Shown piece by piece: positions 48,510-63,446 of a stretch of DNA of 64,000 nucleotides. The translations under genes and the position numbers were made by a program. This stretch comes from Burkholderiales bacterium (GTDB lineage Bacteria; Pseudomonadota; Gammaproteobacteria; Burkholderiales; Burkholderiaceae_C), in contig JAGWTH010000002.1 in assembly GCA_028868995.1 (NCBI GenBank), positions 1 to 64,000 of the forward strand, read 5' to 3'. The notes beneath the pieces were generated by a model, which ran no database searches, was not told the DNA's origin, and was given only the letters and a program-made list of their open reading frames with translations. Positions within the stretch are counted from its first letter, which is position 1, and each line of letters opens with the position of its first letter.

Positions 48510-49850
<1,341 letters not shown>

Positions 49851-49868: not shown

Positions 49869-49908
49869 CTGCCAGGATGGCAGCGCATTCTGCCACCTGG
49901 CTGCCAGG
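49869..49908. promoter_or_regulatory. Palindromic enhancer sites upstream of persulfide dioxygenase gene
   Basis: CTGCCAGGATGGCAG (49869-49883) and CCTGGCTGCCAGG (49896-49908) are palindromes built from the half site TGCCA/TGGCA. They lie about 95-130 bases before the -24 element at 50000, the usual distance for a sigma-54 activator. The same half sites recur upstream of the cyd operon. Confidence 0.65.
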
Positions 49909-49999
49909 GACAGGCGCGAGCGTCCGCCGCGACCGCCTGCGGCCCGGATTTTTCATTGAAAATCAGGGGCTTGCAGCCGCCGCCGGGCGGCAGCAGGGC

Positions 50000-50015
50000 T
50001 GGCATGGCTCTTGAT
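50000..50015 (+). promoter_or_regulatory. Candidate sigma-54 promoter of persulfide dioxygenase gene
   Basis: TGGCATGGCTCTTGAT matches the consensus TGGCACG-N4-TTGCW at most positions; the -12 element reads GA instead of GC. It would start transcription near 50026, leaving room for the CAGGAG ribosome binding site before the ATG at 50057. Confidence 0.5.
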
Positions 50016-50056
50016 CCGCCATGGCATTCCCTTTCCTTCGCGACCAGGAGTTACCG

Positions 50057-50938
50057 ATGGAGACGAGCCGCCTGCAGGTCGAGGCCTTCTTCGATCCCGC
50101 CACCTGGACCCTGAGCTACATCGTGCTGGATGCGGCGACGCGCCGCTGCGCGATCGTCGACAGCGTCCTCGACTACGACCCCAAGTCCGGCCGCACCCGC
50201 CACGACAGCGCGGGCAAGCTCGTGGCGCGCGTGCGCGAGCTGGGCGCGCAGGTGGAATGGATCCTGGAGACCCATGTCCACGCCGACCACCTCACCGCCG
50301 CCCCCTTCCTCAAGGAGCAGTTGGGCGGCCAGGTGGGCATCGGCAACCGGATCACGGCGGTGCAGGAGGTGTTCGGCGACCTGTTCAACGCCGGCCCCGG
50401 CTTCGCGCGCGACGGCCGCCAGTTCGACCGCCTGTTCGCCGACGGCGACACCTTCGCCATCGGCGGGCTGCGGGTGCGCGCGATGCATACGCCGGGCCAC
50501 ACGCCGGCCTGCGTGACCTACGTGGTGACCGACGGCACCGAGACCGCGGCCTTCGTGGGCGACACGCTGTTCATGCCGGACTACGGCACGGCGCGCTGCG
50601 ACTTCCCCGGCGGCGACGCCCGCACGCTGTACCGCTCCATCAACAAGCTGCTGGCGCTGCCGCCCGAGACGCGCCTGTACATGTGCCACGACTACCTGCC
50701 GGGCGGCCGGCCGATGCAGTACGTGAGCACGGTGGCCGACCAGCGCGCGCACAACGTCCACGTGCGCGACGGCATCAGCGAGGAGGCGTTCGTGACCATG
50801 CGCACCGCGCGCGACCGCACGCTGGACATGCCGGTGCTGATCCTGCCCTCGGTGCAGGTGAACATGCGCGCCGGCCACCTGCCCGAGCCGGAGGCCAACG
50901 GCACGCGCTACCTGAAGATCCCGGTGGACAGGGTCTGA
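50057..50938 (+). CDS. Persulfide dioxygenase-like metallo-beta-lactamase-fold protein
   Basis: A 293-residue cytosolic protein. It has FFDPATWTLSYIVLD at the start, the motif THVHADHLTA (HxHxDH), MHTPGHTPACVTYVV, FVGDTLFMPDYGTARCDFPGG and CHDYLPGGRPMQYVST. This set matches ETHE1-like/Blh persulfide dioxygenases, which oxidise glutathione persulfide to sulfite with one mononuclear iron. The DYGTARCDFPGG segment and lack of a rhodanese domain fit the PDO branch. The ATG at 50057 follows CAGGAG by 6 bases; an in-frame ATG at 50021 lies upstream of it. No sulfide quinone reductase gene is in the window. Confidence 0.85.
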   Translation: METSRLQVEAFFDPATWTLSYIVLDAATRRCAIVDSVLDYDPKSGRTRHDSAGKLVARVRELGAQVEWILETHVHADHLTAAPFLKEQLGGQVGIGNRITAVQEVFGDLFNAGPGFARDGRQFDRLFADGDTFAIGGLRVRAMHTPGHTPACVTYVVTDGTETAAFVGDTLFMPDYGTARCDFPGGDARTLYRSINKLLALPPETRLYMCHDYLPGGRPMQYVSTVADQRAHNVHVRDGISEEAFVTMRTARDRTLDMPVLILPSVQVNMRAGHLPEPEANGTRYLKIPVDRV

Positions 50939-50955
50939 GGGAAGGCGCCGACCGC

Positions 50956-51243
50956 TCAGCGCAGCAGCACGAGCAGGGCGGCGCCGGCCACGCCGGCCGC
51001 GCACGACGCGGGTGAGAACAGCCAGCGCCACACAGGCGCCCGCGGCACGAAGCCGAGGCCGGCGACGAAGCCCGCGCTCATCGCCCAGAACAGCAGCATC
51101 GCCAGGCCGTGGTCGGCCCCACCGCGGCCGTCGGAGAACAGCGGCGGGTAGGCCGTGCCGGCCAGCATGATGGCCAGGGCCGTCAGCAGGCAGGGCCAGT
51201 GCAGCCGCGTGGCCGGTTCCTGCTGCGGCCGCGGCGCGCTCAA
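50956..51243 (-). CDS. ybgE: Cyd operon membrane protein YbgE-like
   Basis: A 95-residue protein with three hydrophobic segments (LTALAIMLAGTAY, LAMLLFWAMSAGFVAGLGFV, AAGVAGAALLVLLR), matching the size and layout of YbgE, a small protein encoded at the end of cyd operons. Its function is not known. The TTG start at 51243 overlaps the cydX stop (TTGA). Its end is 17 bases from the end of the persulfide dioxygenase gene (convergent). Confidence 0.7.
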   Translation of the reverse strand: MSAPRPQQEPATRLHWPCLLTALAIMLAGTAYPPLFSDGRGGADHGLAMLLFWAMSAGFVAGLGFVPRAPVWRWLFSPASCAAGVAGAALLVLLR

Positions 51244-51362
51244 GGCTGCCGCTCCTCCTCGTGCGACAGCGCGCGCGCCTCCGCGTTCTCGCCCCACATC
51301 GCGTTCAGCACCGCCAGCAGGACGGCGAACCCGACCCCCAGCACCCAGGCGAAGTACCACAT
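51240..51362 (-). CDS. cydX: Cytochrome bd small subunit CydX
   Basis: A 40-residue single-helix protein beginning MWYFAWVLGVGFAVLLAVLNAMWGE, which is the canonical CydX sequence, with a charged C-terminus (EEERQP). CydX binds beside CydA and stabilises the haems. It starts 12 bases after cydB and is too short to be found by length-based gene calling. Confidence 0.9.
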   Translation of the reverse strand: MWYFAWVLGVGFAVLLAVLNAMWGENAEARALSHEEERQP

Positions 51363-51374
51363 CGCGCTTTCCTT

Positions 51375-52517
51375 TCAGTAGGCCGTGTGTTCGTTGGCGC
51401 GGATCTGTTCCACCGTGACCTTGCCGCGCATCACGCGGTAGGCCCAGCTGGTGTAGAAGACGATCAGCGGCATGAAGATGACGGTGGCCCAGAACATCAG
51501 GCCCAGCGTCAGGTGGCTGGAGACGCTGTCCCACACCGTGAGGCTGGCGTCGGGCGCCGAGGACGAGGGCATCACGAAGGGGAACATCGCGCCGCCGGCG
51601 GTGCCGATGACGCCGACGATCGCCAGCGCGGAGCAGACGAAGGCCAGCAAGGTGCGGCGCAGCCGCGCCATCAGCGCGGCCAGCAGCGCGCCGGCGATGC
51701 CCAGCGCGGGCAGCAGCCACAGCGCGGGCGCCGCGGCGTAGTTGGCCCACCAGGCGCCGGCGCTGCGCACCACGTGCTTGGCCAGCGGGTCGGGCAGGGC
51801 CGCCGGGTCGACCGGCGTGGCCAGCGCGTAGCCCTGGATGCCGCCGAAGCGCAGCCAGAGACCCGCCACCACGAAGGCGGCGACCATCACCAGCGCCGCA
51901 CCGGTGGCCGCGCGCACCGCACGCTGCTGGATCGCGCCCTCGGTGCGGTGCGCCAGGTAGGTCGCCCCGTGCAGCGTGATCATCGCGCTGCTCACCACGC
52001 CGGCCACCAGCGCGAACGGGTTGAGCAGCTGCCAGAAGCTGCCCGTGTAGGTCGACACCAGCAGGTCGTCGAACTGGAAGGGCACGCCCTGCAGCAGGTT
52101 GCCGAAGGCCACGCCGAAGATCAGCGGCGGCACCGCCCCGCCCACGAACAGGCCCCAGTCCCAGGTGCGGCGCCAGCGCGCATCGTGGATCTTGCTGCGG
52201 TAGTCGAAGCCGACCGGCCGGAAGAACAGCGCCCAGAGCACCGCCAGCATCGCCCAGTAGAAGCCGCTGAAGGCGGTGGCGTAGACCACCGGCCAGGCGG
52301 CGAAGATGGCGCCGCCGCCGGTGATGAACCACACCTGGTTGCCGTCCCAGTGCGGGCCGACGGTGTTGATCACCACGCGCCGCTCGGTGTCGTCGCGGCC
52401 CACGAAGGGCAGCAGCGTGCCCACGCCCATGTCGTGGCCGTCCATGATGGCGAAGCCCACCAGCAGCACGCCGACGAGCAGCCACCAGATGATCTTGAGG
52501 GTAGCGTAGTCCAGCAT
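51375..52517 (-). CDS. cydB: Cytochrome bd ubiquinol oxidase subunit II
   Basis: A 380-residue membrane protein with the CydB N-terminus MLDYATLKIIWWLLVGVLLVGFAIMDGHDMGVGTLLPF and NTVGPHWDGNQVWFITGGGAIFAAWP, and about nine hydrophobic segments. Length equals the Escherichia coli type. It starts 10 bases after cydA. Confidence 0.96.
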   Translation of the reverse strand: MLDYATLKIIWWLLVGVLLVGFAIMDGHDMGVGTLLPFVGRDDTERRVVINTVGPHWDGNQVWFITGGGAIFAAWPVVYATAFSGFYWAMLAVLWALFFRPVGFDYRSKIHDARWRRTWDWGLFVGGAVPPLIFGVAFGNLLQGVPFQFDDLLVSTYTGSFWQLLNPFALVAGVVSSAMITLHGATYLAHRTEGAIQQRAVRAATGAALVMVAAFVVAGLWLRFGGIQGYALATPVDPAALPDPLAKHVVRSAGAWWANYAAAPALWLLPALGIAGALLAALMARLRRTLLAFVCSALAIVGVIGTAGGAMFPFVMPSSSAPDASLTVWDSVSSHLTLGLMFWATVIFMPLIVFYTSWAYRVMRGKVTVEQIRANEHTAY

Positions 52518-52527
52518 CTCGTCCTCC

Positions 52528-54096
52528 TCAGGCGGCCAGCGCGGCGTGCGCGGGTTCGTGGCTGTAGCGGCCGGTGCCCAGGCTGCCCGGGCCCTGGCGG
52601 GCGAACTTCACCATCAAATACATCTCCACCACCAGCAGCACCGTGTAGAAGCCGACGAAGCCGGCGAGCGACCCGTAGAGGCTGGCCTCCGACAGCGTGG
52701 ACACGCTCAGGTGCGTGGGCAGCACGCCGTAGATGGTCCAGGGCTGGCGGCCGTACTCGGCGACGAACCAGCCCAGCTCGCAGGCGATCCAGGGCGCCGG
52801 CAGCATCCACAGCGCCCAGCGCAGCAGCCACGGTTTCGCCTTGCAGTTGGTCTTCAGGGTGGACCAGAAGGCCAGGCCGAACAGCAGCAGCATCGCGAAG
52901 CCCAGGCCCACCATGATGCGGAAGGTCCAGAACATCGGCACCACCGGCGGCACCGTGTCGTCCACGGCCTTCTGGATCATCTCGGGCGTGGCCTGGCGCA
53001 CGTCGGCGACGTACTTCTTCAGCAGCAGGCCGAAGCCGAGGTCGGACTGCGTGGCCTCCAGGATGCGTTTCGCCTCGGCGTCGTTGCGGTCCTTGCGCAG
53101 GCGCTCCAGCGCCGCCACCGCCTCCACGCCGCGCTGGATGTGCTCGCGGTTGCGCTCCTTGATCTCGTGGATGCCGGGGATCTGCTTGGTGACCGAGCGG
53201 GTGCCGATCAGGCCCATGAGCCAGGGGATCTGGATCTCCCAGTTGTTGCGGCCGTGGGCCTGGTCGATGCTCGCGATCAGCTTCAGGCCGGCCGGGGCCG
53301 GCTCGGTCTCCCACATGGCCTCCAGCGCCGCCATCTTGGTCTGCTGCGCCTCGCCCACGGTGTAGCCGGATTCGTCGCCCAGCACGATCACGCTGGCCAC
53401 GCTGGCCAGGCCGAAGGCCGCCGCGACGCGGAAGCTGCGCCGGGCGAATTCGACGTCGCGGCCCTTGAGCAGGTACCAGCTGGAGATGGCCAGCACGAAC
53501 ATCGACCCGGTGACGTAGCCGGCCGACACCGTGTGCACGAACTTGGCCTGCGCATCGGGGTTGAAGACGATGGCCCAGAAGTTGGTCATCTCCATGCGCA
53601 TCGTCTGCCAGTTGAACTCGGCGCCCACCGGGTTCTGCATCCAGCCGTTGGCCACCAGGATCCACAGCGCGCTCAGGTTGGTGCCGATCGCCATCAGCAG
53701 CGTCACCAGCAGGTGCTGCGGCCGCGACAGGCGGTCCCAGCCGAAGAAGAACAGGCCGATGAAGGTGCTCTCCAGGAAGAAGGCCATCAGGCCCTCGATC
53801 GCCAGCGGCGCGCCGAAGATGTCGCCGACGTAGTGCGAGTAGTAGGCCCAGTTGGTGCCGAACTGGAACTCCAGCGTGATGCCGGTGGTCACGCCCAGCG
53901 CGAAGTTGATGCCGAACAGCTTGCCCCAGAAGCGTGTCATGTCCTTCCAGACCACCTGGCCGGTCATGACGTACACGCTCTCCATGATCACCAGCAGCCA
54001 GACCATGCCCAGCGTGAGCGGCACGAACAGGAAGTGGTACAGCGCCGTGGCGGCGAACTGCAGCCGCGAGAGGTCGACGAGGTGTTCCGAAATCAT
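52528..54096 (-). CDS. cydA: Cytochrome bd ubiquinol oxidase subunit I
   Basis: Haem-bearing subunit that oxidises quinol and reduces oxygen. The 522-residue protein has the haem ligand region SRLQFAATALYHFLFVPLTLGM (H19-type), GLMAFFLESTFIGLFFFGWDRLS with conserved glutamates, and the GRQPW signature in AEYGRQPWTIYGVLPT. The loop with QSDLGFGLLLKKYVADVRQATPEMIQKAVDDT is the long Q-loop type. The ATG at 54096 overlaps the cydP stop and has AAGGA upstream. Cytochrome bd resists sulfide and cyanide better than haem-copper oxidases. Confidence 0.97.
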   Translation of the reverse strand: MISEHLVDLSRLQFAATALYHFLFVPLTLGMVWLLVIMESVYVMTGQVVWKDMTRFWGKLFGINFALGVTTGITLEFQFGTNWAYYSHYVGDIFGAPLAIEGLMAFFLESTFIGLFFFGWDRLSRPQHLLVTLLMAIGTNLSALWILVANGWMQNPVGAEFNWQTMRMEMTNFWAIVFNPDAQAKFVHTVSAGYVTGSMFVLAISSWYLLKGRDVEFARRSFRVAAAFGLASVASVIVLGDESGYTVGEAQQTKMAALEAMWETEPAPAGLKLIASIDQAHGRNNWEIQIPWLMGLIGTRSVTKQIPGIHEIKERNREHIQRGVEAVAALERLRKDRNDAEAKRILEATQSDLGFGLLLKKYVADVRQATPEMIQKAVDDTVPPVVPMFWTFRIMVGLGFAMLLLFGLAFWSTLKTNCKAKPWLLRWALWMLPAPWIACELGWFVAEYGRQPWTIYGVLPTHLSVSTLSEASLYGSLAGFVGFYTVLLVVEMYLMVKFARQGPGSLGTGRYSHEPAHAALAA

Positions 54097-54275
54097 CGTT
54101 GTTGTCCTTCGGAGTCGGCTGCCTGGCCCGCGCCCAGGTGGTCGGTGACGGTCTGGGCATCCACCGGCGGCTGGGCGCCGCGCACGAACGCGGCCCACAG
54201 TGCGGCGAGCAACAGCAGCTTGATGGCGACGGCGGCGGCGAGGTGGCGCAGCAGCCGGCGATCGGCGGGGATCAT
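54093..54275 (-). CDS. cydP: Small cytochrome oxidase protein CydP-like
   Basis: A 60-residue protein with one hydrophobic helix (AAAVAIKLLLLAALWAAFVRG) preceded by the basic DRRLLRHL, the layout of the putative small subunit CydP found before cydA in betaproteobacteria. It overlaps cydA by four bases. The ATG at 54275 fits the family N-terminus, but no good ribosome binding site is seen. Confidence 0.75.
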   Translation of the reverse strand: MIPADRRLLRHLAAAVAIKLLLLAALWAAFVRGAQPPVDAQTVTDHLGAGQAADSEGQQR

Positions 54276-54286
54276 GGGCTCGTTCT

Positions 54287-54302
54287 TACAAGACCTGTGC
54301 CC
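54287..54302 (-). promoter_or_regulatory. Candidate sigma-54 promoter of cyd operon
   Basis: On the minus strand GGGCACAGGTCTTGTA fits TGGCACG-N4-TTGCW with the -24 GGCAC exact and GT in place of GC at -12. The predicted start, near 54276, falls right at the cydP ATG, so cydP would be leaderless while cydA keeps its own ribosome binding site. That oddity lowers confidence. Confidence 0.45.
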
Positions 54303-54345
54303 ATGCAGGCAACAAGGAAAATCAAGCACTTGCGAGCGCCCGGCG

Positions 54346-54389
54346 CTGCCATGGCAGACTGCCAGTGCCAGCTTGGCAGCGCCTGGCAG
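54346..54389. promoter_or_regulatory. Cluster of TGCCA/TGGCA palindromes upstream of cyd operon
   Basis: CTGCCATGGCAG (54346-54357) is a perfect 12-base palindrome. It is followed by half sites TGCCA at 54360 and 54366 and TGGCA at 54374 and 54384; the pair 54366-54378 is again a palindrome (5+3+5). These are the same half sites as upstream of the persulfide dioxygenase gene and lie 45-90 bases before the candidate -24 element of cyd. Confidence 0.65.
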
Positions 54390-54459: not shown

Positions 54460-54729
54460 ATGCTCACCCGCCAGTTCACCAGCGGCCGCATCCGCAAGGC
54501 GGAGTACGACCCCGCCACCCGCCAGCTGGACCTGCACTGGGACCAGGGCAACGTGCTCGCGTACAAGCAGGTCCCCGAGGAGGTGTTCCGGCGCCTGTGC
54601 GCCGCCCCGAACCCCACGACCTACTGGGAAGACCGCATCGCCGAGGAATACCCGAAGGGCACGCCGCGCTCTTCCGGCAAGCCTGCCGGCGGGCCGACGC
54701 TGAAGGACCTGTTCGGCGACGGCGGCTGA
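54460..54729 (+). CDS. KTSC domain protein
   Basis: An 89-residue protein: RIRKAEYDPATRQLDLHWDQGNVLAYKQVPEEVFRRLCAAPNPTTYWEDRIAEEYP follows the KTSC domain pattern, a small beta-rich domain found alone or fused to lysyl-tRNA synthetases in other proteins, function unclear. The C-terminal 20 residues are Gly/Pro-rich. A very strong ribosome binding site, AAGGAGG, lies 8 bases before the ATG. It is divergent from cyd and shares its palindrome-rich spacer. Confidence 0.82.
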   Translation: MLTRQFTSGRIRKAEYDPATRQLDLHWDQGNVLAYKQVPEEVFRRLCAAPNPTTYWEDRIAEEYPKGTPRSSGKPAGGPTLKDLFGDGG

Positions 54730-59699: not shown

Positions 59700-61616
59700 A
59701 TGCAATTCCACCTCGACGGCTTCCAGCCCGGCGACCCCCACATCTCGCAGGCCTCCCCGCTGGCGCTCCCGCACACCGACGCGGTGCCGGAGCAGGTGGA
59801 CGTGCTGATCGTCGGCTGCGGCCCCGCCGGGCTGACGCTGGCGGCGCAGCTGGCGGCCTTCCCCGACATCCGCACCTGCATCGTCGAGCAGAAGGACGGC
59901 CCCCTGCAGCTGGGGCAGGCCGACGGCATCGCCTGCCGCACCATGGAGATGTTCGAGGCCTTCAACTTCGCCGAGCGGGTGCTCAAGGAGGCCTGCTGGA
60001 TCAACGAGGTCACCTTCTGGAAGCCCGACGAGAAGGACCCCGCGAAGATCGTCCGCCACGGCCGCGTGCAGGACACCGAGGACGGCCTGTCGGAGTTCCC
60101 GCACGTGGTGCTGAACCAGGCGCGGGTGCACGACTTCTACCTGGAGACGATGCGCGATTCGCCCAGCCGCCTCCAGCCGCACTACTCGCGGCGCCTGCTG
60201 GACCTGAAGGTGGACCGTTCCGGCGCCGACTACCCGGTGACCGTGCGCCTCGAGCGCACCGACCCGAAGCACGAAGGCCGGGTGGAAACGCTGAAGGCCC
60301 GCTACGTCGTCGGCTGCGACGGCGCGCGCAGCGCCGTGCGCGGTGCCATCGGCCGCAAGCTGGTGGGTGACGCCGCCAACCAGGCCTGGGGCGTGATGGA
60401 CGTGCTGGCGGTGACCGACTTCCCCGACATCCGCCACAAGGTGGCCATCCAGTCGTCCAACGGCGGCAACCTGCTGATCATCCCGCGCGAGGGCGGCTAC
60501 CTGGTGCGCCTGTACGTGGAGATGGACAAGCTGGGCGAGGACGAGCGGGTGGCGCAGCGGCAGATCTCGCTGGACAAGCTGATCGCCGCGGCGCAGCGCA
60601 TCTTCCATCCCTACACGCTGGAGGTGAAGGAGGTGCCCTGGTGGTCCGTCTACGAGATCGGCCACCGCATCTGCGACAAGTACGACGAGGTGCCGGCGGA
60701 GGACAACGACCAGCTCCTGCCGCACGTGTTCATCGCCGGCGACGCCTGCCACACCCACAGCCCCAAGGCGGGCCAGGGCATGAACTTCTCCATGCAGGAC
60801 ACCTTCAACCTGGGCTGGAAGCTGGCCGCGGTGCTGCGCAAGCAGTGCCCGCCGTCGCTGCTGCGCACCTACTCGCAGGAGCGCCAGGTCGTGGGCCACC
60901 AGCTGATCACGTTCGACCGCGAATGGGCCCACATGATCAGCGACAAGCCGGCCGAGGGCGGCACCGGCGGCGTGGACCCCAAGGTGTTCCAGCAGTACTT
61001 CGAGCGGCACCTGCGCTTCACCGCAGGCATGGGAACGAAGTACCAGCCCTCGGTGATCTGCGGCGATGCCACGCACCAGGCGCTGGCCACCGGCTTCGAG
61101 GTCGGCACGCGCTTCCATTCGGCGCCGGTGGTGCGCGTCACCGACGCCAAGGTGGTGCACCTGGGCCACGCCGGCAAGGCCGACGGCCGCTGGCGCCTGT
61201 ATGCCTTCGCCGGCGCCAACGACCACGTCGACGGGCACACGGGCGTGCGGGCGCTGTGCAAGTTCCTGGAGGAGTCGCCCCAGTCCCCGGTGCGCCGCTT
61301 CACGCGCGCGGGCCAGGACCCGGACGCGGTGTTCGACCTGCGCGCCATTTTCCAGCCCAGCCACCGGGACCTGGCCATCGAGACCCTGCCGGCCCTGCTG
61401 CTGCCGCGCAAGGGCCGCTACGGCCTGCGCGACTACGAGAAGGTGTTCTGCCCGGACCTCAAGAACGGACCGGACATCTTCGACCTGCGCGGCGTCGACC
61501 GCAAGCAGGGGGCGCTGGTCGTCGTGCGGCCGGACCAGTACATCGCGCAGGTGATGCCGCTGTCGGCCCACAAGGAGCTGGCGGAGTTCTTCGCCGGCTT
61601 CATGCTGCCGGCCTGA
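59700..61616 (+). CDS. mobA: 3-hydroxybenzoate 4-monooxygenase (MobA-like)
   Basis: FAD-dependent aromatic hydroxylase converting 3-hydroxybenzoate to protocatechuate. The 638-residue protein starts MQFHLDGFQPGDPHISQASPLA and has the Rossmann motif VLIVGCGPAGLTLAAQLAAF, the CDGARSAVR motif and FIAGDACHTHSPKAGQGMNFSMQD for FAD ribose binding, plus the C-terminal thioredoxin-like domain of the phenol hydroxylase family. N-terminus and length fit MobA of Comamonas testosteroni as I remember it. The ATG at 59700 follows CCGGAGAC; an in-frame ATG at 59637 would overlap the operator. Related phenol 2-monooxygenases are the alternative. Confidence 0.87.
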   Translation: MQFHLDGFQPGDPHISQASPLALPHTDAVPEQVDVLIVGCGPAGLTLAAQLAAFPDIRTCIVEQKDGPLQLGQADGIACRTMEMFEAFNFAERVLKEACWINEVTFWKPDEKDPAKIVRHGRVQDTEDGLSEFPHVVLNQARVHDFYLETMRDSPSRLQPHYSRRLLDLKVDRSGADYPVTVRLERTDPKHEGRVETLKARYVVGCDGARSAVRGAIGRKLVGDAANQAWGVMDVLAVTDFPDIRHKVAIQSSNGGNLLIIPREGGYLVRLYVEMDKLGEDERVAQRQISLDKLIAAAQRIFHPYTLEVKEVPWWSVYEIGHRICDKYDEVPAEDNDQLLPHVFIAGDACHTHSPKAGQGMNFSMQDTFNLGWKLAAVLRKQCPPSLLRTYSQERQVVGHQLITFDREWAHMISDKPAEGGTGGVDPKVFQQYFERHLRFTAGMGTKYQPSVICGDATHQALATGFEVGTRFHSAPVVRVTDAKVVHLGHAGKADGRWRLYAFAGANDHVDGHTGVRALCKFLEESPQSPVRRFTRAGQDPDAVFDLRAIFQPSHRDLAIETLPALLLPRKGRYGLRDYEKVFCPDLKNGPDIFDLRGVDRKQGALVVVRPDQYIAQVMPLSAHKELAEFFAGFMLPA

Positions 61617-61629
61617 GGCGCCGGCAGGG

Positions 61630-62214
61630 TCACTGCTCCGTGACGGTGAGGGATTCCAGCACCTGGCGGCACACCGGCTCGATCGCGCCGAGCTTCGTCC
61701 GGTCCTGGCCGGTGGCCCCGCAGCTCACCACCAGCCGGGTGTCCTTCAGGCAGACCACGAGGCTGCGCACCAGCAGGTGGTCGGGCGGCGCATCGCGCTC
61801 GTAGTGGATCTCGAAAGCGGGCCGGCCTTCGTGCTGGCGCGCGAACACGTCGGTGACCTGCACGCCCGGCTGCTCGCCGGCGCGCTGCAGCATGGTGCGC
61901 GCGTGCTCCGGCTTGCAGACGGCCGCGAGGTCGTCGCGGCGCTGGCCGCGGCCGACCTGGAGGATGCCCGTGACCCCGCCCTCGGGCCCCCGCAGTTCGG
62001 CCAGGGCCATGGGGTCGTCGGTGTCGACCCGCTTCCAGGCGGCCGGATGGCGTACCCGCACGACGACGCCGGCCGAGCCGGGCAGGCCCCGGCTGCTGAA
62101 TTCCTTCCAGTCCTGCGCCTGGGCGCCGGCCGGTGAAGCCCAGGCGAGCGCCAGCGCCGCCGCCAGAACGCGGAGCATCGCCTTGCGCGGGGGGGCGTCG
62201 GCCAGGGTCGGCAT
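61630..62214 (-). CDS. Secreted protein of unknown function
   Basis: A 194-residue protein with an export signal (MLRVLAAALALAWASPAGAQA) and a mixed alpha/beta body: VRHPAAWKRVDTDDPMALAELRGPEGGVTGILQVGRG. Three cysteines (VCKPEHA, VVCLKD, VCRQVL, and one in VSCGATG) could form disulfides. I do not recognise the family. The ATG at 62214 is used; an in-frame ATG at 62178 gives a more typical signal peptide and may be the true start. It is convergent with mobA, 13 bases apart, and divergent from the aminotransferase. Confidence 0.65.
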   Translation of the reverse strand: MPTLADAPPRKAMLRVLAAALALAWASPAGAQAQDWKEFSSRGLPGSAGVVVRVRHPAAWKRVDTDDPMALAELRGPEGGVTGILQVGRGQRRDDLAAVCKPEHARTMLQRAGEQPGVQVTDVFARQHEGRPAFEIHYERDAPPDHLLVRSLVVCLKDTRLVVSCGATGQDRTKLGAIEPVCRQVLESLTVTEQ

Positions 62215-62270
62215 GGGTCGGGCCGATCATATAGTCGATACTTTCGCCCGCCCCCGACCCGGAGATTCGA

Positions 62271-63446
62271 ATGCACCAGGCCCAAAGGATGGAGCGCGTC
62301 GACGCGCCCATCATCCCCACCATCGCCGCCCTGACGCGGGCGACGCCCGGCACCATCTCGCTGGGCCAGGGCGTGGTGAGCTACGGGCCGCCCGTGGAGG
62401 CGGTGGCGCGGCTGCCGGCCCTGCTGGCCGACGGCCAGCTGCACAAGTACCAGCCGGTCGCCGGCTACGCGCCGCTGCTGGAGGCCATCCGTGCCAAGCT
62501 CGCCGCCGAGAACGGCCTGCGCACGGAGGGCGTGTCGCAGGTCATGGTGACGGCCGGCAGCAACATGGCCTTCCTGAACAGCGTGCTGGCCGTGTCCGAC
62601 CCGGGCGACGAGTTCATCCTGCCGCTGCCCTTCTACTTCAACCAGGAGATGGCGGTGCGCATGTGCGGCTGCGTGCCGGTGCCGGTGCCCACCCGCGCCG
62701 ACTGGTCGCTGGACGTCGACGCGCTGGCCGCCGCCATCACCCCGCGCACGCGCGCCATCGTGACGGTGTCGCCCAACAACCCCACGGGCGCCGTCTACGC
62801 CGAGGCCGACCTGCGGGCGGTGAACGCCCTGTGCGCGCGCGCCGGCATCTACCACTTCAGCGACGAGGCCTACGAGTACTTCACCTTCGAAGGCGTCCGG
62901 CATTTCTCCCCCGGCTCCCTCCCCGGGGCGCACGAGTACACGCTTTCGTTCTATTCCATGTCCAAGAACTACGGCATGGCCAGCTGGCGCGTGGGCTACG
63001 TCGTGTTCCCGGCGCACCTGGCCGCGGCGATGGACAAGGTGCAGGACACCAACCTGATCTGCGCGCCCGTGCCTTCGCAGCTGCTGGCGCTGGAGGCGCT
63101 GCGCCTGGGCAAGGCCTGGGTGCGGCCGAAGGTGGAGGAGCTCGCCCGCGTGCGGTCGGCCGTGCACGCCTCCCTGGCCGATCTCGGCGACCTCGTGCGC
63201 TTCCCGCGCACCCAGGGCGCCTTCTACGTCCTGATGCGCCTGCCCGGCGTGGACGATGCGCTGGCCTTCAACCGCGCGATGATCGAGAAATACAAGGTCG
63301 CCACCATTCCCGGCTTCGCCTTCGGCCTGACCGACACGCGCCGCGACAACTACCAGCGGCTGTCCTTCGGCGCGCTCGATGCGGCCACGGTGGCCGAGGG
63401 CGTGCAGCGCTACGTGGCGGCGGTGAAGGACTGGTACGCGGCCTGA
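62271..63446 (+). CDS. Class I/II PLP-dependent aminotransferase
   Basis: A 391-residue enzyme of fold type I: TISLGQGVVSYGPP, KYQPVAGYAPLLEAI, VTAGSNMAFLNSVLAVSDPGDEFILPLPFYFN, NNPTG (N170), DEAYEYFTF (D198 and Y201) and the cofactor lysine K232 in FYSMSKNYGMASWRVGY. The substrate cannot be told; aspartate/aromatic or kynurenine-type aminotransferases share this pattern. CCGGAGATT precedes the ATG. Confidence 0.88.
   Translation: MHQAQRMERVDAPIIPTIAALTRATPGTISLGQGVVSYGPPVEAVARLPALLADGQLHKYQPVAGYAPLLEAIRAKLAAENGLRTEGVSQVMVTAGSNMAFLNSVLAVSDPGDEFILPLPFYFNQEMAVRMCGCVPVPVPTRADWSLDVDALAAAITPRTRAIVTVSPNNPTGAVYAEADLRAVNALCARAGIYHFSDEAYEYFTFEGVRHFSPGSLPGAHEYTLSFYSMSKNYGMASWRVGYVVFPAHLAAAMDKVQDTNLICAPVPSQLLALEALRLGKAWVRPKVEELARVRSAVHASLADLGDLVRFPRTQGAFYVLMRLPGVDDALAFNRAMIEKYKVATIPGFAFGLTDTRRDNYQRLSFGALDAATVAEGVQRYVAAVKDWYAA

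Follow-up and report, generated by a model that had tools for sequence, protein, structure and literature searches.

The stretch analyzed here, 64,000 nt of a Burkholderiales bacterium (GenBank assembly GCA_028868995.1, contig JAGWTH010000002.1, positions 1 to 64,000; hereafter the window), carries a gene for a FisR-like sigma54 activator, a persulfide dioxygenase-like gene (pdo) divergent from it with a sigma54-type promoter in the spacer, and the cytochrome bd operon cydPABX-ybgE. Our analysis points to this operon belonging directly to the FisR regulon: together with the sigma54 factor RpoN, FisR very probably activates cyd, as the switch that lies beside fisR is repeated before cyd and the same pairing is found in relatives. 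An earlier, sequence-only reading of the window had proposed that the cyd operon may belong to this regulon, and the comparative evidence, namely the operator, the promoter and their conservation together with FisR, supports that proposal.

The predicted operator is a cluster of TGCCA/TGGCA half-sites. Six of them, starting at 54347, 54352, 54360, 54366, 54374 and 54384, lie inside 42 bp of the spacer upstream of cydP, where the sequence-only reading had described a dense cluster that includes CTGCCATGGCAG (54346-54357). In the fisR/pdo spacer, half-sites start at 49870, 49878, 49891, 49902, 50000 and 50022. Over the whole window the half-sites are rarer than expected (66, versus means of 172 and 219 under first- and second-order Markov models), and the densest cluster is that of the cyd spacer (six per 50 bp), followed by that of the fisR/pdo spacer (four). 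As simulated 64-kb windows (300 per Markov model) reached at most four half-sites per 50 bp, the density of the cyd cluster is beyond the simulations. Moreover, in the genome scanned (3.76 Mb, 99.67% complete) the dyad TGCCA-N3-TGGCA occurs three times: in the fisR/pdo spacer (49870-49882), in the cyd spacer (54366-54378), and at position 19646 of contig C7, inside a reading frame that is pilin-like by eye. The genome-wide scan thus bears out the recurrence of the palindromes in the two spacers, the third copy being intragenic. Since the dyad is not more frequent than a reversed control pattern (3 vs 5), its places, and not its number, are informative. The perfect palindrome TGCCATGGCA was rejected as a signal on its own, given that with at most one mismatch it has 4 matches in the window for 3.84 expected; one further genomic copy lies on contig C68.

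On the cyd strand the cluster is followed by GGGCACAGGTCTTGTA (54302-54287, minus strand), as the earlier reading had it, and both spacers of the window present their elements in the same order, that is, half-site cluster, site resembling those of integration host factor (IHF), and -24/-12 promoter (54388-54347, 54332-54320 and 54302-54288 for cyd; 49870-49906, 49961-49973 and 50000-50014 for pdo). Exact matches to GGCAYNNNTCTTGW number three in the genome, namely in the pdo promoter (50001), in the cyd promoter (54301-54288, minus strand), and at position 28852 of contig C30, within a coding stretch that is ftsH by eye; this rarity is only descriptive, because the pattern was built once the promoters in relatives and in the window were already known. 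Both IHF-like sites were called with the IHF consensus, which has exact matches in 7 of 19 FisR-type spacers (110 bp before the promoter) for 0.06 expected. In the mechanism that we propose, FisR oligomers would bind the cyd cluster as an upstream activating sequence, the intervening DNA would be bent, probably by IHF at its predicted site, and the AAA+ domain would hydrolyze ATP to open the RpoN-polymerase complex waiting at the promoter. FisR would act likewise at the pdo promoter, from the cluster in that spacer.

Among 120 genomes of the family, FisR (E ≤1e-120) is found in 20 and CydA (E ≤1e-150) in 21, the latter at ≥82% identity in 12, the window's included. FisR and a CydA at that identity occur together in 9 genomes, compared to 20 x 12 / 120 = 2 expected, and in a tenth FisR-bearing genome (G101) a contig ends within cydA, so that only a fragment of the gene is present. 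Six family loci (L039, L042, L043, L044, L049, L050) have fisR next to cyd and in divergent orientation. A sigma54-type promoter precedes the operon in all 11 FisR-bearing cyd loci that were compared, window included (8/11 with a stricter pattern, which the window, G082 and L068 fail), and a TGCCA-N3/4-TGGCA dyad lies 76-132 bp before the promoter in nine of them, while the orthologous operons of two family genomes without a FisR match (G038 and G081) have neither promoter nor dyad, G081 showing three lone half-sites. The palindromes upstream of cyd are therefore kept in relatives where FisR is present. Three loci stand outside this count: L070, with a gene between fisR and cyd, L073, where the two are convergent, and G112, whose cydA reaches the end of its contig and has no upstream sequence. 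In L070, from an Azoarcus metagenome-assembled genome (MAG), the intervening frame is truncated-globin-like by eye and lies between the FisR-type promoter and cyd, and the half-site cluster includes TGCCATGGCA, as in the window. The objection that a promoter 12 nt from the start of cydP is implausible was considered and dropped, as the -12 motif ends 12-13 nt from the cydP ATG in 9 of the 11 loci (window, L067, L053, L034, L068, L042, L043, L044 and L049), and 28 and 30 nt from it in G025 and G048; from the shorter spacing, a leaderless or nearly leaderless cydP message is predicted.

The best parallels come from genomes whose FisR falls in the pdo-linked clade; a close cyd operon is combined with it in at least five cases (window, G082, G053, G075, and L068 from an Oxalobacteraceae MAG), and in each of these cydP is preceded by the N3 dyad and by a sigma54-type promoter. 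In G053 the cyd operon is on a different contig from fisR-pdo, so that neighborhood is no explanation for its sites. Genome-wide, and among the matches listed for the family (without those of G025 and G058), G082 has 14 N3 dyads, including one between fisR and cydP, and G053 and G075 have five each, including two in the spacers of fisR/pdo and cyd. Regarding the more diverged family CydA proteins (57-63% identity, nine genomes), eight lack a match to a loose promoter pattern and G070 has two that are of a different form. In G097, which belongs to the window's genus, neither FisR at E 1e-120 nor CydA at E 1e-150 was found, both being missing or too diverged. Some loci came from a contig scan based on the AAA+ domain; because its patterns derive from that domain, the FisR homologues taken from it are only 9 of its 80 loci (L068-L076), and the remaining 71 were dropped.

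The comparison at the level of the order covered 399 genomes, with FisR (E ≤1e-100) in 62 and CydA (E ≤1e-180) in 113, 34 of the latter being FisR-bearing. fisR adjoins cyd in at least 24 of the 62 FisR-bearing genomes; 22 loci in which fisR is divergent from cydA within approximately 1 kb were chosen by eye from coordinates, and L154 and L159 were added later. All 22 linked loci have a sigma54 promoter in the 600 bp that precede cydA (0.16 expected by shuffling); with the same pattern, read away from fisR, L154 has one and L159 has none, which brings the count to 23/24. In genomes without a FisR match, 22 of the 79 that have CydA being taken mostly by CydA score order, the promoter was present in 2 of 22 cyd loci (0.15 expected), and both turned out to have FisR sequence next to cyd; absence of FisR is a weak label in this set, since four of its loci (L227-L230) have FisR-like sequence beside cyd. 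In three of these (L227 from G428, L228 from G371 and L229 from G456) the FisR-like matches are short or split and may represent a decaying fisR, and L227 and L228 are also without the promoter. In L154 (G285), only the first 79 CydA residues match beside fisR and CydB follows directly, cydA being seemingly shortened or replaced.

Several observations weigh against control of cyd by FisR. The window's cyd promoter has GGG for TGG at the first base of the -24 element and TTGT at -12, and fits the relaxed pattern only. It should be considered, nevertheless, that the subtype TGGCAYGnnTCTTGA/T is common to many FisR-type promoters of the family, which makes GGGCACAGGTCTTGT less odd when set against a textbook TTGC. 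In L037, the promoter of pdo falls outside the promoter pattern. Two of the 11 close loci (G101 and G026) lack an N3/N4 dyad, the window's N3 dyad is 76 bp from the promoter versus 92-132 bp in the other eight dyad loci, and, judging by half-site positions, the TGCCA dyad becomes scarcer in families farther away. Of the 19 FisR-type spacers (110 bp before the promoter), 12 have no IHF-like site, so this site may be a helper at most. Moreover, scoring against a fixed consensus of 13 positions failed to tell the three order sets apart, and the promoter pattern was relaxed to TGG[CT]A[CT]N5TTG[ACT] after that result had been seen; the shuffles behind the IHF test and the order promoter counts preserve base composition only. 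Finally, only 1 of 16 unlinked cyd loci in FisR-bearing genomes of the order has the promoter (0.06 expected). Overall, the promoter tracks adjacency to fisR very closely, and the mere presence of FisR in a genome is no predictor of it. The layout of the window is a rarer one, in which cyd appears detached from fisR with its own predicted operator and promoter kept, likewise in G053.

As to the signal, the sensor domain of FisR contains a cysteine triad, C62-X10-C73-X6-C80, that is invariant in the alignment of FisR homologues. The C-X10-C-X6-C spacing is present in the window's FisR and in all 20 family FisR proteins, is kept in 54 of 54 FisR proteins placed on a tree, pdo-linked ones included, and is presumably that of FisR from Cupriavidus pinatubonensis JMP134. 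It has been reported that C. pinatubonensis FisR is a sulfane sulfur sensor that uses three conserved cysteines (PMC9774590). Because of the triad and the pdo neighbor, this signal is carried over here from the FisR proteins of C. pinatubonensis and Acinetobacter baumannii, and sulfane sulfur reacting with C62, C73 and C80 is the likely cue; a quinol oxidase that is presumably tolerant to sulfide would therefore rise together with the removal of persulfide.

It is also possible, though rather unlikely, that FisR and RpoN control cyd in response to some other cue, thiol-reactive or gaseous, e.g., nitric oxide, carbon monoxide (CO) or low oxygen. Several FisR homologues indeed adjoin respiratory genes that have no evident connection with sulfur, coding for Rieske proteins (L038, L045) or CcoG/FixG (L040, L047). 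However, the triad is invariant in all the proteins on the tree, those linked to pdo included, its counterpart in C. pinatubonensis is reported to sense sulfane sulfur, and other neighbors fit sulfur metabolism, namely pdo, a SLAC1-family channel (L168) and a molybdopterin oxidoreductase (L155).

If, instead, the cyd promoter were sigma54-dependent but driven by a different activator of the same genome, which encodes RpoN, candidates would be at hand in four further sigma54-activator matches obtained with FisR as query. We consider this quite improbable, since the N3 dyad found before cyd has its only other noncoding copy beside fisR, and the activator gene adjoining cyd in relatives is a FisR homologue. 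Marginally less probable still is that the cluster serves the divergent gene for a small KTSC-domain protein or arose by chance, cyd being under, e.g., an FNR-type regulator. FNR-type control of cyd is common, and the cluster ends approximately 70 bp before the KTSC start; yet the half-site cluster is beyond chance in the Markov simulations, relatives have these elements upstream of cydP too, and the promoter faces cyd, at 12-13 nt from the ATG in 9/11 loci. Direct activation of cyd by FisR thus remains the preferred explanation.

The features of the locus are listed in Table 1. The AAA+ sigma54-interaction domain of FisR is recognized with 219 bits (PF00158, cut-off 20.2), and a candidate Fis-type helix-turn-helix, HTH_8 (PF02954), at its C-terminus reaches 20.8 bits, slightly below the cut-off of 22; the C-terminal end itself is similar in relatives. 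The best NCBIfam model for the persulfide dioxygenase (PDO), the NF040641 dioxygenase, gives 394 bits, below its cut-off of 625, and the start of pdo was set at 50057 because only 6 nt lie between the promoter and the upstream ATG (50021). Pfam and NCBIfam profiles find all of the cytochrome bd subunits CydA and CydB and the small subunit CydX, CydA scoring 780 bits with the stricter model NF011677 (cut-off 968). The operon and the dioxygenase gene had been described as lying end to end, and they are indeed convergent, 17 bp apart. On its other side, cyd shares its upstream spacer with the divergent KTSC-domain gene (54460-54729).

Table 1. Coordinates of the genes and predicted regulatory elements of the fisR-pdo-cyd locus (positions in the window).
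Feature	Position	Strand	Basis or remark
FisR-like sigma54 activator, PAS-type sensor domain	48510..49850	-	Pfam PF00158, PF25601, PF08448 above cut-off
Upstream activating cluster of fisR/pdo, four half-sites	49870..49906		TGCCAGGATGGCA at 49870-49882
IHF-like site of fisR/pdo spacer, AATCAGGGGCTTG	49961..49973	+	IHF consensus
sigma54-type promoter of pdo, TGGCATGGCTCTTGA	50000..50014	+	pattern match
pdo, persulfide dioxygenase-like, metallo-beta-lactamase fold	50057..50938	+	PF00753 above cut-off
ybgE	50956..51243	-	PF09600 above cut-off
cydX	51240..51362	-	TIGR02106 above cut-off
cydB	51375..52517	-	TIGR00203 above cut-off
cydA	52528..54096	-	PF01654 above cut-off
cydP	54093..54275	-	NF045611 above cut-off
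sigma54-type promoter of cyd, GGGCACAGGTCTTGT	54288..54302	-	ends 12 nt before cydP ATG
IHF-like site of cyd spacer, AATCAAGCACTTG, between cluster and promoter	54320..54332	+	IHF consensus
Predicted FisR operator cluster of cyd, six TGCCA/TGGCA half-sites	54347..54388		TGCCATGGCA at 54347-54356, TGCCAGCTTGGCA at 54366-54378

Elsewhere in the genome, contig C26 has a gene resembling that of sulfide:quinone oxidoreductase (SQR; 61192-62454, L239) and, about 7 kb apart from it, a second PDO-like gene (69043-69894, L237). The SQR-like protein is 66% identical to a Thiobacillus protein that is itself a weak match to an SQR model, and the genome-wide pattern scans list neither an exact FisR-type promoter nor an N3 dyad on that contig.

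FisR homologues have further partners. CydA-like proteins of 34% identity, as in oxidases of the cyanide-insensitive (CIO) type, are encoded divergently from fisR in L071 (Acidovorax benzenivorans) and downstream of it in L032, and, besides the respiratory and sulfur-related neighbors mentioned above, L158, L160 and L163 begin similarly to the molybdopterin oxidoreductase locus L155, and L170 similarly to the SLAC1 locus L168. On the tree of 54 FisR proteins, where the window's FisR is placed among the pdo-linked rows, the cyd label needs 8 changes and the pdo label 2; several losses, gains or renewals of the cyd pairing have taken place. A wider reading, for which we regard the case as evenly balanced, is that the FisR family is a general respiratory-chain switch of Burkholderiales, in which a FisR with the triad has repeatedly been re-paired (with cydPAB, CIO-like oxidases, Rieske or CcoG/FixG proteins, molybdopterin reductases, SLAC1 channels and pdo) so that intracellular sulfane sulfur would pick the terminal oxidase via RpoN, in and near the window's family from a promoter so close to cydP that the message would be leaderless or almost so.

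The closest described systems share part of this arrangement. In C. pinatubonensis JMP134, FisR controls sulfide oxidation genes (Li et al. 2017) and is alike in being a sigma54 activator with three sensor cysteines and sulfur-oxidizing targets; however, the available text names no terminal oxidase among the targets described there, whereas the window has a cytochrome bd operon with the same predicted operator and promoter. In A. baumannii (PMC7315123), fisR is likewise divergent from pdo1, with a predicted sigma54 promoter, and cydAB is among the sulfide-induced genes, but, as far as the accessible portion of that report goes, FisR dependence is shown for the pdo1 operon and cydAB is not tied to FisR. 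Cupriavidus necator H16 offers another Burkholderiales operon, cydA2B2 (PMC10164946), for which the reporter signal at 24 h was approximately 1000-fold lower with the wild-type upstream region than with that of a point mutant, which might be as expected of a promoter awaiting its activator; that operon was, however, studied for CO tolerance, its mutation was accounted for by a promoter of the sigma70 type, and FisR is unmentioned in the part of the paper available. The circuit had also been called undescribed by the sequence-only reading. In that respect, no report of cyd under FisR was found among the matches listed in the literature searched, most subscription journals being outside its scope, so this part stands within those bounds, while sulfide induction of cydAB as such was already known elsewhere (PMC7315123).

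Haem-copper oxidases are poisoned by sulfide and cytochrome bd is tolerant to it, and in several bacteria the levels of cydAB transcripts increase with sulfide, according to the accessible text of PMC7315123; no named sensor for this induction was found in the literature searched, as far as its available text goes. Altogether, genome comparison supports the circuit as a predicted extension of the FisR regulon, in many relatives. If the direct link between FisR and cyd is true, it would supply a sensor for the sulfide induction of cydAB, and would place respiration and the removal of persulfide under a common regulator. The predicted operator and promoter of cyd are defined precisely enough for mutational testing, and the link might also explain bd operons that are seemingly silent under ordinary laboratory conditions.

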